The notes under the pieces were generated by a model that searched no databases, was not told the DNA's origin, and was given only the letters and a program-made list of their open reading frames with translations. This document shows, piece after piece, positions 3,688-58,473 of a DNA stretch of 64,000 bases (position 1 is its first letter; each line of letters starts with the position of its first letter). The DNA is from Candidatus Sysuiplasma acidicola. GTDB taxonomy: Archaea > Thermoplasmatota > Thermoplasmata > Sysuiplasmatales > Sysuiplasmataceae. The stretch covers positions 1 through 64,000 of the forward strand of contig JAHEAA010000002.1 in the NCBI GenBank assembly GCA_019721035.1. The letters run 5' to 3'. Both the position numbers and the translations under genes were made by a program.

Positions 3688-3917
3688 AACAGCCACATTT
3701 GGATTCATAGTGCCGTTGGCCGAAACGTCATGCACACATACTGTCCTCTTCTCATCATGAGCAAACTTTTTGTCTGAATGCCATCGAAGTACCGCCGGTG
3801 GATGCACCCAGGGGCATAAGAACGTCACAGAATGCACTTCGAACGCCTGTCTTGGTGACTCGAAACGCATCGCTGGAACTCACTGGCTGACGAATCGTCA
3901 TACAATGTACGACGCAC

Positions 3918-3936
3918 AACAAAAATATTATATACT
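3918..3936 (+). promoter_or_regulatory. Likely TATA region for RHH/FtsZ-like operon
   Basis: An A/T-rich run containing AAATATTATATAC lies 50-65 nt upstream of the RHH gene start, in a gap of nearly 300 nt without a convincing gene. It is the best promoter candidate for the RHH and FtsZ-like genes. Confidence 0.4.
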
Positions 3937-3984
3937 ATCCGACTGTTATCTTCACTTCGCAAATACCCGAAGGAGTGTAGCATA

Positions 3985-4374
3985 ATGTCGGACAACCGGA
4001 TATCTCTGCGTCTTGACGACCACGAGATTAGGACCATCGACGAATTCCTGGATACGCATCCGGATATCGCCAACAGGTCCCAGCTCGCAAGAGTGTCGAT
4101 AAGACGGTTTATCACCGAGGAGAACGGTGAGAAACTGTCTGATGACTCTCAGGCAGATCAAGAGCGGGGAAAAAGGGTGATGGTTGTTCTTGCCCCGGCT
4201 GAAGCGGATTTGCTCGAGCAGATGGTGAAGAACGGATTATTCGTGTCCTTGAAGGATGCGATAAGCTACATCATGAAGACTTACACCATAAACAGGGAGA
4301 ACAGGCTCGAGAAAGTCATGGAGTCTATCTGTGACATGAGGGAAAAGCTGGTGCAAGTGGACCGCGAGCACTGA
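3985..4374 (+). CDS. Tandem ribbon-helix-helix regulator upstream of FtsZ-like gene
   Basis: The protein has 129 residues. Residues 4-45 read as a ribbon-helix-helix unit (strand NRISLRLDDHEIRTIDEFL, then a second helix). Residues 63-100 look like a second, related unit (strand RVMVVLAPAEADLLEQMV followed by a helix). The C-terminus is a charged helix. An AGGAG ribosome site precedes the ATG. The FtsZ-like gene follows 103 nt downstream on the same strand. In haloarchaea the RHH protein CdrS is encoded with and controls ftsZ2, so a division regulator is a reasonable inference, though this protein is longer. Confidence 0.75.
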   Translation: MSDNRISLRLDDHEIRTIDEFLDTHPDIANRSQLARVSIRRFITEENGEKLSDDSQADQERGKRVMVVLAPAEADLLEQMVKNGLFVSLKDAISYIMKTYTINRENRLEKVMESICDMREKLVQVDREH

Positions 4375-28184: not shown

Positions 28185-28278
28185 GGGTCCGTAGCTCAGC
28201 TAGGTAGAGCAATCGGCTCTTAACCGAAAGGTCGAGGGTTCGAATGACACGCAGTGTCCGAATCTCCCTCCGGGCCCG
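28185..28278 (+). tRNA. tRNA-Lys(CUU) with intron in the T-loop
   Basis: The acceptor GGGTCCG pairs with CGGGCCC, the D-arm is GCTC/GAGC, and the anticodon loop CTCTTAA gives anticodon CTT (one A-A mismatch at pair 27-43). The T-stem is GAGGG/CCCTC, but 27 nt instead of 7 lie between its arms. Removing 28245-28264 leaves a loop TTCGAAT of exactly 7 nt. The discriminator is G at 28278 and CCA is not encoded. The mature tRNA would be 74 nt. Confidence 0.95.
28245..28264 (+). other. 20-nt BHB intron in tRNA-Lys at position 59/60
   Basis: The precursor folds as a bulge-helix-bulge: outer helix GAGGG/CCCTC, 4-bp central helix TTCG/CGAA, 3-nt bulges AAT and TCT on opposite strands, and an inner hairpin GACAC-GCA-GTGTC. 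Cleavage after the second base of each bulge, as the archaeal splicing endonuclease does, removes this segment and joins TTCGAA to T. Confidence 0.88.
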
Positions 28279-56658: not shown

Positions 56659-57214
56659 GGTACCGCAGGAGCGTATAGGGGTATTGCTTGGAAAACAGGG
56701 TGCGTTGAAAAAGAGGATCGAGTCGGAAACGGGGGTCCGAATCAACATTGACTCAGGGGAAGGCTATGTGGAGGTTGATGGCAGCGCTGCGAGGGATCCG
56801 GTGATGGAACTCAAAGTATCGTCATACGTGACTGCAATATCAAGGGGTTTTTCGCCCGAAAGAGCCGAACGTCTTCTTGGCGAAGACATATTCTTCGACA
56901 TTGTCGACATATCAGATTACGCCGGCGGCGGCAAGAAAAGGCTGCAGCGGATGAGAGGCAGAGTCATAGGCAAGGATGGCAGGGCTAGAAAAATGATTGA
57001 GAATCTCACCGAAACGATGATCTCAGTTCACGGCGATACGGTAGGAATTATAGGCGATCAGCTGGAACTCCAACTTGCGAAATCGGGAATAGATATGCTG
57101 CTCAGGGGAAGCGAGCATTCAGCTGTTTTTCATTTTCTCGAGGGCAGGAGACGAGAATTGAAGATCAAAGAGCTGGCCTATTCCAGGGAGCCTGAATGGC
57201 GGGAGAGTGAGTGA
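56636..57214 (+). CDS. KH-domain rRNA-processing protein (Krr1/Pno1-like)
   Basis: The 192 residues have two KH-like parts: PQERIGVLLGKQGALKKRIE (about residues 9-28) with the GxxG loop, and RGRVIGKDGRARKMIENLT (about 104-122). The order and length are those of the archaeal relatives of Pno1/Dim2 and Krr1, which bind 16S/18S rRNA during assembly. The GTG start lies inside the 3' end of rio1, and the last 4 nt overlap pus10. Confidence 0.9.
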   Translation: MRELQYLRVPQERIGVLLGKQGALKKRIESETGVRINIDSGEGYVEVDGSAARDPVMELKVSSYVTAISRGFSPERAERLLGEDIFFDIVDISDYAGGGKKRLQRMRGRVIGKDGRARKMIENLTETMISVHGDTVGIIGDQLELQLAKSGIDMLLRGSEHSAVFHFLEGRRRELKIKELAYSREPEWRESE

Positions 57215-58473
57215 ACCTGGAAAGGGGAAGCAGCAGGATCGCGCCTCCGTTCAATCAGACGATTGGAAGGGTCAAGACAGGTGATCCGAATCCTGAAAGA
57301 TGCATCTGTGATGCGTGTGCCCTGAGGATTGTTGGAATTCGGTCGGACGAGAAGGAGCATGCAGCATTGACACTTCCGTCTGGTTACCGCCTCGTGCCAG
57401 AAGACGATGACAGCTGCACCGTGTGTGGCGGGCTGCTCAAGAGGCTTGAACCGGCTTCCAGGCTGCCGCTTGCTGAACTCTCCGCGTGGGAGTTCAGCAC
57501 ATTCTGGGTCGGCACTAAAGTGGAATTCGGTCTTCTCGCGAGGGAGCAGGAAGTGGCCGCTGATTTCGGCATAGTTCCTGCTCGATCGATAAAGGTCGAT
57601 ATAAACAGACGCATCGGGCTGCTCATTGCATCGGCCACTGGTAAGGAGGCACGGCTGGAGAACCCGGACATGCTGATCATTATAGATATTGCCTTCCTGG
57701 CATTCGAACTGGAACCGGCACCGCTCTTCATCTACGGGAGGTATACTAAGCTGGCCAGGGGCATCCCACAGACAAAGTGGCCATGCAGGAAATGTCACGG
57801 AAAGGGATGCAGTTACTGTGATTTCAAAGGGCGTATGTATGAGACGAGCGTTGAAGAAATAGTTGCTGCTCCTGCCATGCGAACTGCTTCCGCTGCATCA
57901 CATTCATTTCATGGCATGGGAAGAGAAGACATAGATGCGCTTATGCTCGGAGAGGGCAGGCCCTTCATACTACAGCTGGACAGACCGCACAGGAGATCGT
58001 TCAGCCTGACGATATTGTGCGAACAGATCAATATAGAAGGCGAGGGCATCGTGCATGTCTCCGATCTCAGGTTTTCGAATCGCGAGGAAGTAAGGAATCT
58101 GAAGGCTGCAGCGCCGCACAAGGCATATGTCGCACGTTTTACCACGTTGGGCAAAGTTAATAAAGAGAAACTGGTTGAGGTGCTTTCCAGACTTAGCGGA
58201 ACAACCCTTTCACAACGTACACCACTGAGGGTGGCTCATCGTAGGGCCGACCTTGTGAGGATGAGGACGATTGTCGAATGCAGGCTGTTAGAGTATGATG
58301 GTCAGACTGCTTCGGTCGAGATAATCGCCGAATCTGGAACGTATATAAAGGAGTTCGTGACAGGAGATGGCGGCAGAACTGTGCCAAGCATATCCGAATC
58401 TCTTGGGACGGGCTGCACCGTTATTTCGTTGGATGTGATGAAAATAGAAACAGGAGCTGGTGACGCATGGTAA
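57211..58473 (+). CDS. pus10: tRNA pseudouridine synthase Pus10
   Basis: Pus10 makes pseudouridine at positions 54 and 55 of tRNA. The 420 residues have an N-terminal THUMP-like and zinc region (CICDACALRI ... CTVCGG, and a second CRKCHGKGCSYC) and a C-terminal catalytic domain with the Asp in GREDIDALMLG. The C-terminus includes SGTYIKEFVTGDGGRTVPS. The GTG start overlaps the KH gene by 4 nt and the end overlaps L21e by 7 nt. Confidence 0.95.
   Translation: MNLERGSSRIAPPFNQTIGRVKTGDPNPERCICDACALRIVGIRSDEKEHAALTLPSGYRLVPEDDDSCTVCGGLLKRLEPASRLPLAELSAWEFSTFWVGTKVEFGLLAREQEVAADFGIVPARSIKVDINRRIGLLIASATGKEARLENPDMLIIIDIAFLAFELEPAPLFIYGRYTKLARGIPQTKWPCRKCHGKGCSYCDFKGRMYETSVEEIVAAPAMRTASAASHSFHGMGREDIDALMLGEGRPFILQLDRPHRRSFSLTILCEQINIEGEGIVHVSDLRFSNREEVRNLKAAAPHKAYVARFTTLGKVNKEKLVEVLSRLSGTTLSQRTPLRVAHRRADLVRMRTIVECRLLEYDGQTASVEIIAESGTYIKEFVTGDGGRTVPSISESLGTGCTVISLDVMKIETGAGDAW

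Follow-up and report, generated by a model that had tools for sequence, protein, structure and literature searches.

A T-loop intron in tRNA-Lys(CUU) of Candidatus Sysuiplasma acidicola and its counterparts in lysine tRNA genes of Thermoplasmatota

The window analysed here, a stretch of 64,000 nucleotides from the acid-habitat archaeon Candidatus Sysuiplasma acidicola, contains a gene that reads as tRNA-Lys(CUU) except for its T-loop, which comprises 27 nt instead of the normal 7. This raises the question whether the gene can still supply a lysine tRNA and, if so, by which route the T-loop is restored. We consider it highly probable (roughly 0.93) that the locus is a functional, single-copy tRNA-Lys(CUU) gene, the insert being an intron at position 59/60 that would be removed by protein splicing. 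The elements of the gene are as follows.

28185-28278, plus strand: interrupted tRNA-Lys(CUU) gene
28185-28244, plus strand: 5' exon, nucleotides 1-59, with the anticodon CTT at 28219-28221
28245-28264, plus strand: putative 20-nt intron at position 59/60 (TGACACGCAGTGTCCGAATC), from the bulge-helix-bulge (BHB) parse
28265-28278, plus strand: 3' exon, nucleotides 60-73 (T, CCCTC, CGGGCCC, G73); CCA is not encoded
28234-28270, plus strand: hBHBh' splicing motif, from the sequence read, the MFE fold and family comparison
28234-28238/28266-28270, plus strand: outer helix of the motif, i.e. the T-stem GAGGG/CCCTC, 5 bp
28239-28242/28259-28262, plus strand: central helix TTCG/CGAA, 4 bp
28243-28245 and 28263-28265, plus strand: bulges AAT and TCT, 3 nt each
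28246-28250/28254-28258, plus strand: inner helix GACAC/GTGTC, 5 bp, with the loop GCA

The numbered parse places the insertion between positions 59 and 60 of a tRNA with the acceptor stem GGGTCCG/CGGGCCC (GU allowed). The mature cloverleaf is sound apart from the anticodon stem (28211-28228), which contains an A27.A43 mismatch that is kept in every family sequence read and in both lysine tRNAs. Within the insert the archaeal BHB pattern is present, i.e. a 4-bp central helix between two 3-nt bulges on opposite strands, and the same element appears unchanged in the minimum-energy structure predicted for the 94-nt gene (z = -2.58). If each bulge is cut behind its second nucleotide, the 20 nt from 28245 to 28264 drop out and TTCGAAT is left, whereupon ARAGORN calls the spliced sequence as tRNA-Lys(ctt). 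The first-pass annotation, which had proposed a 20-nt 59/60 BHB intron in a tRNA-Lys(CUU) of Thermoplasmata, is thus borne out by parse, fold, restored loop and gene call, and its lineage is correct. Random 20-nt inserts at the same site yield an in-register 4-bp helix in 3.1% of trials, and this helix together with an inner helix of at least 5 bp in 0.03%.

In its unspliced form the gene is not called as a tRNA by ARAGORN and scores 28.7 bits against the Rfam tRNA cut-off of 29, i.e. 0.3 bits under it; the Rfam match DAOA-AS1_2 that overlaps the gene is due to chance. Being missed by standard finders, together with the A27.A43 mismatch, could be taken to mark the window copy as a pseudogene, AAG being read by another gene or tRNA. 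However, it is the sole Lys(CUU) gene found in the genome: a second, intact copy, which the first-pass annotation had named as a sign of a pseudogene, was not found, although a draft genome of 95% completeness leaves a residual chance of such a copy. An ARAGORN call for Lys(ctt) at C23:19965 proved on the correct strand to be tRNA-Ala(CGC) with a D-loop intron. Moreover, the mature sequence is intact, the intron-bearing gene is conserved in every family genome where it was found, and tRNA-Lys(UUU), which could read AAG by wobble, is likewise interrupted. We therefore regard a pseudogene as hardly credible and treat the locus as a working gene that T-loop interruption hides from standard gene finders, as it does the interrupted tRNA-Lys genes in much of Thermoplasmatota. 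Non-canonical introns are searched for by tRNAscan-SE 2.0 (PMC8450103), whose database may already list some of the interrupted Lys genes.

Within the family Sysuiplasmataceae, the Lys(CUU) intron at 59/60 (20-21 nt) is present in 7/7 genomes in which the gene was found; the gene was not found in the eighth draft genome. All 13 counted motif pairs are kept in the seven sequences, the three helices being invariant, and variation is seen in the hairpin loop and at one or more bulge positions. As no helix position varies, a covariation test within the family is uninformative; what the alignment indicates is constraint, not covariation. The first-pass annotation had also proposed a genome-wide check for other T-loop introns, and this check found one in the second lysine tRNA gene of the same organism.

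Contig C10, 871-977: tRNA-Lys(UUU), with a 19-nt intron at 20/21 and a 14-nt intron at 59/60

Both introns are present in 8/8 family Lys(UUU) genes, and at the locus in the Candidatus Sysuiplasma superficiale record the D- and T-loop are identical to those of a genome of the same genus (G001). A further feature of this tRNA concerns position 55, which is near-universally U (pseudouridine 55): its spliced T-loop reads TCCGAAT in 8/8 family genomes, so that position 55 is C. C55 also occurs in tRNA-Ile(GAT) of Sysuiplasma acidicola.

In the Sysuiplasma acidicola assembly, which comprises 1.97 Mb in 35 contigs and is 95% complete, 45 tRNA genes could be recognised; about half of them are interrupted. 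By our own count, 22 of the 45 carry 24 introns, 19 of them at 37/38 and five at non-canonical positions: 59/60 in Lys(CUU), 20/21 and 59/60 in Lys(UUU), and one each in the D-loops of Ala(CGC) and Thr(GGT), the last beside a 37/38 intron. Reported shares of intron-bearing tRNA genes are ~8% in Euryarchaeota and 48% in Crenarchaeota (PMC4090602). Many of the 37/38 introns of this genome have an inner helix of 0-1 bp. The 37/38 intron of tRNA-Trp(CCA) (contig C6, ~3908-4080, minus strand) is 102 nt long and, like its counterpart in other Euryarchaeota, includes box C/D-like motifs. A second tRNA-Asn(GTT) gene (contig C3:43007-43078) is intronless and quite unlike the intron-bearing Asn gene. 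Initiator tRNA-Met and tRNA-Arg(CCG) were not recognised among the 45; they may lie in missing sequence or may be interrupted beyond recognition.

To follow the intron through the phylum, we surveyed 60 genomes from 22 families, ran a named scan with one genome per species and swept 390 phylum genomes. The first-pass annotation had expected only canonical 37/38 introns in Thermoplasmata, an expectation that does not hold: a Lys(UUU) intron at 59/60 occurs in at least 16 Thermoplasmatota families, two of which (f31, f54) lie outside the class Thermoplasmata, and it is usually accompanied by a second intron at 20/21. Of the Lys(UUU) genes in the named scan, 79 could be parsed: 65 contain both introns, 10 the T-loop intron only, 2 the D-loop intron only and 2 neither, a tally that does not represent prevalence as the scan pattern selects for a T-loop intron. 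Matches removed by eye were intronless genes with a chance downstream TCCC (G067, G109, G071; L204, L207, L209, L251), and the same holds for most of the 27 matches in another pattern scan. In families f6, f12, f13 and f17 the Lys(UUU) T-loop intron is absent where the gene was found. The corresponding Lys(CUU) intron is rarer; it is found in all Sysuiplasmataceae in which the gene was found and in members of f7, f11, f24, f25, f29 and f31. In one genome (G051) the CUU and UUU T-loops match at 31/37 positions, a likeness that suggests copying from one gene into the other; copying of introns between genes has been proposed for Thermoproteales (PMC4033280). Taken together, an intron at 59/60 appears to be of long standing in the tRNA-Lys genes of the phylum; Lys(UUU), with a second intron at 20/21, is its most frequent host.

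Further information on whether the insert is removed at all comes from the phylum's 59/60 introns, of which 109 distinct ones were compared. Hereby, the in-register central helix is complete (4/4) in 100 introns and 3/4 in the remaining 9, while shifts of 1-3 nt give a 4/4 helix in none. In 72/109 the bulge is directly followed by an inner helix of 3 bp or more, and the restored T-loop is TTCGAAT in 93/109. Compensatory change is also seen, T-loops with TCCG facing CGGA in the family and those with TTCG facing CGAA or CGGA elsewhere. In 75 introns at 20/21 the in-register helix is 4/4 in 58 and 3/4 in 17, with the pair types CTAG/CTAG, GTAG/CTAC, CCAG/CTGG and CCCG/CGGG, i.e. two-sided changes that keep the pairing; these introns leave two unpaired nucleotides (A14, G15) opposite the 3' bulge and thus have a relaxed 3' site. 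Judged by these comparisons, the BHB motif of the Lys introns is under selection. Since the insert folds stably, it could alternatively persist after maturation as a hairpin that lengthens the T-arm, the unspliced tRNA being functional. Yet T-loop lengths range from 21 to 65 nt among species and still a 7-nt loop results from the cut register in every case, the 4-bp helix stands in register at the EndA sites only, and Lys(UUU) would need to retain a 20/21 insert as well. A retained hairpin is thus very improbable, and removal of the insert by splicing remains our preferred reading.

The same type of intron bears on a gap reported for a cultured relative. In Methanomassiliicoccus luminyensis, tRNAs were found for all amino acids except Lys, which was supposed to be encoded in unsequenced DNA (Borrel et al. 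2014, PMC4153887). In family f24, Lys(UUU) carries both introns in 15/15 genomes, and these introns match those of records with Methanomassiliicoccus in their titles. One f24 genome (G427; 2.6 Mb, ~30 contigs, 99% complete, G+C ~62% over 53 kb, sole member of its genus in the set) carries an intron in the T-loop of Lys(CUU) as well as of Lys(UUU), and both genes were missed by ARAGORN and Rfam. This genome fits M. luminyensis B10 (26 contigs, 61% gene G+C; PMC4153887), with which we presume it to be identical. Hence, T-loop introns probably explain the reported absence of tRNA-Lys in this organism.

Removal of the window intron would depend on a splicing endonuclease and a ligase, and genes for both are present in the genome.

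Contig C10, 11421-12434: EndA, one gene of ~355 aa with N-C-N-C domains in one frame
Contig C3, 5781-7088: RtcB ligase, match 1.2e-171, in the same genome as EndA

The EndA chain has two catalytic-domain and two N-domain matches, i.e. the alpha'2 architecture, for which a dimer is predicted; the type of EndA was a further check that the first-pass annotation had called for. This is the only EndA gene in the genome, and neither a separate beta gene nor a three-unit chain, as in (alpha-beta)2 or epsilon2 enzymes, was found. In unit 2 the catalytic positions Tyr, His and Lys are conserved (FRAY, AHA and VRK motifs), and the 8 residues between the YG/FG and LS/IS motifs of this unit equal the A. 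fulgidus spacing. The loops CSL and ASL, insertions beside the active site with a conserved Lys, which confer broad specificity on (alpha-beta)2 and epsilon2 enzymes (PMC12397907, PMC6379350), are absent in EndA of every surveyed class member with a readable site, the ASL site being judged via the statement that ASL and CSL occupy analogous positions. Sysuiplasma EndA hereby differs from A. pernix EndA and the A. fulgidus/A. pernix chimera 3p1y, which have the insertion. Nearly all surveyed relatives share the alpha'2 architecture. The exceptions are families f4, f13 and f17, in which EndA is shortened or degenerate and the catalytic-domain match of the first unit is weak or undetected; these families have few or no T-loop introns, f4 keeping the Lys(UUU) intron.

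Against removal of the window intron by this enzyme speak reviews according to which alpha2-type enzymes cut canonical BHB motifs only and their hosts have 37/38 introns only (PMC4090602, PMC4033280). A. fulgidus and T. acidophilum, too, have alpha'2 enzymes, and these are classed as narrow (PMC6379350). The first-pass annotation had concluded that the window intron implies an endonuclease with broader specificity. Such an enzyme could indeed have allowed introns to reach the T- and D-loops, a proposition that is compatible with our reading and is suggested by the relaxed 3' site of the 20/21 introns with their 2-nt strand facing the 3' bulge, by the many 37/38 introns with hardly any inner helix, and by one group's report that homodimeric EndA cuts BHL-like motifs (PMC8707768). 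Against it stand the alpha'2 type itself, which lacks the CSL/ASL insertion in the surveyed lineages with a readable site, and the narrow listing of the A. fulgidus and T. acidophilum enzymes. Moreover, a narrow enzyme suffices for the window intron because the motif of that intron is a strict BHB, so that broader specificity is not required here. We regard a broad-specificity origin as possible but, on balance, somewhat doubtful. Some tolerance in EndA may nonetheless be indicated by the relaxed 20/21 motif; it does not follow from the window intron.

Based on these elements, we propose that processing of the lysine precursor would be ordered. In the precursor the 3' portion of the intron would base-pair with T54-T55-C56-G57, which would keep the T-loop from folding. 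The alpha'2 EndA would bind the strict BHB and cut at 28244/28245 and 28264/28265, after which RtcB would join the exons; only then would the T-loop form, contact the D-loop and become available to Pus10, whose substrate loop would thus exist only after splicing. Since archaeal tRNA genes have external promoters, transcription should be unaffected by a T-loop interruption, which in eukaryotes would disturb the internal B box. A gene for Pus10 is encoded in the same window, as the first-pass annotation had noted.

57211-58473, plus strand: Pus10, tRNA pseudouridine 54/55 synthase (Pfam Pus10_C 1.5e-65, and Pus10_THUMP_arc)

A similar dependence is known from Cyanidioschyzon merolae, in which Pus4, the eukaryotic Psi55 synthase, is inactive on pre-tRNA with a T-arm intron (PMC9602550). 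As a wider explanation we tentatively suggest, at slightly less than an even chance, that the 59/60 introns, together with those at 20/21, are old and largely vertically inherited in Thermoplasmatota tRNA-Lys, that alpha'2 EndA is tolerant without CSL or ASL, and that lysine decoding needs splicing to precede formation of the elbow and of Psi55. If this is true, a tolerant alpha'2 enzyme and old Lys introns would contradict the rule that associates alpha2 enzymes with introns at 37/38 alone. In the reviews, alpha4 and alpha2 enzymes are paired with 37/38 introns, and introns at other positions are assigned to (alpha-beta)2 and epsilon2 enzymes, which bear a loop; as a large euryarchaeal phylum with alpha'2 EndA has retained introns in the T- and D-loop of an essential tRNA, this rule becomes testable by ordinary enzymology. 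In addition, T-loop introns probably account for lysine tRNAs that appear to be missing from deposited genomes.

The type of intron is already known; what is unexpected is the large lineage, the conservation and the accompanying enzyme type. In the open-licence literature we found no prior report of a Lys T-loop intron spread in Thermoplasmatota, nor of its pairing with a "narrow" enzyme; an earlier description outside that literature is possible. The closest likeness is to the introns of Thermoproteales and other Crenarchaeota (PMC4090602), with which the present ones share the 59/60 position, the BHB motif, short length, occurrence of several per gene and, presumably, protein splicing. They differ in belonging to Thermoplasmatota, in being accompanied by an alpha'2 enzyme that lacks the loop of the crenarchaeal one, and in being mostly found in tRNA-Lys and conserved in many families. 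Canonical euryarchaeal 37/38 introns have the same BHB motif and the same enzyme, whereas the window intron blocks the T-loop and not the anticodon loop. The genomes with ARMAN-2 epsilon2 and crenarchaeal (alpha-beta)2 systems (PMC12397907, PMC6379350) are likewise rich in non-canonical introns, but their EndA carries the ASL or CSL loop with a key lysine, an insertion that Sysuiplasma alpha'2 EndA lacks. Finally, pre-tRNA-Ile(UAU) of C. merolae also has D- and T-arm introns, the latter blocking Psi55 formation by Pus4 (PMC9602550); this system is eukaryotic, with another endonuclease and another tRNA, and the likeness does not imply common descent.
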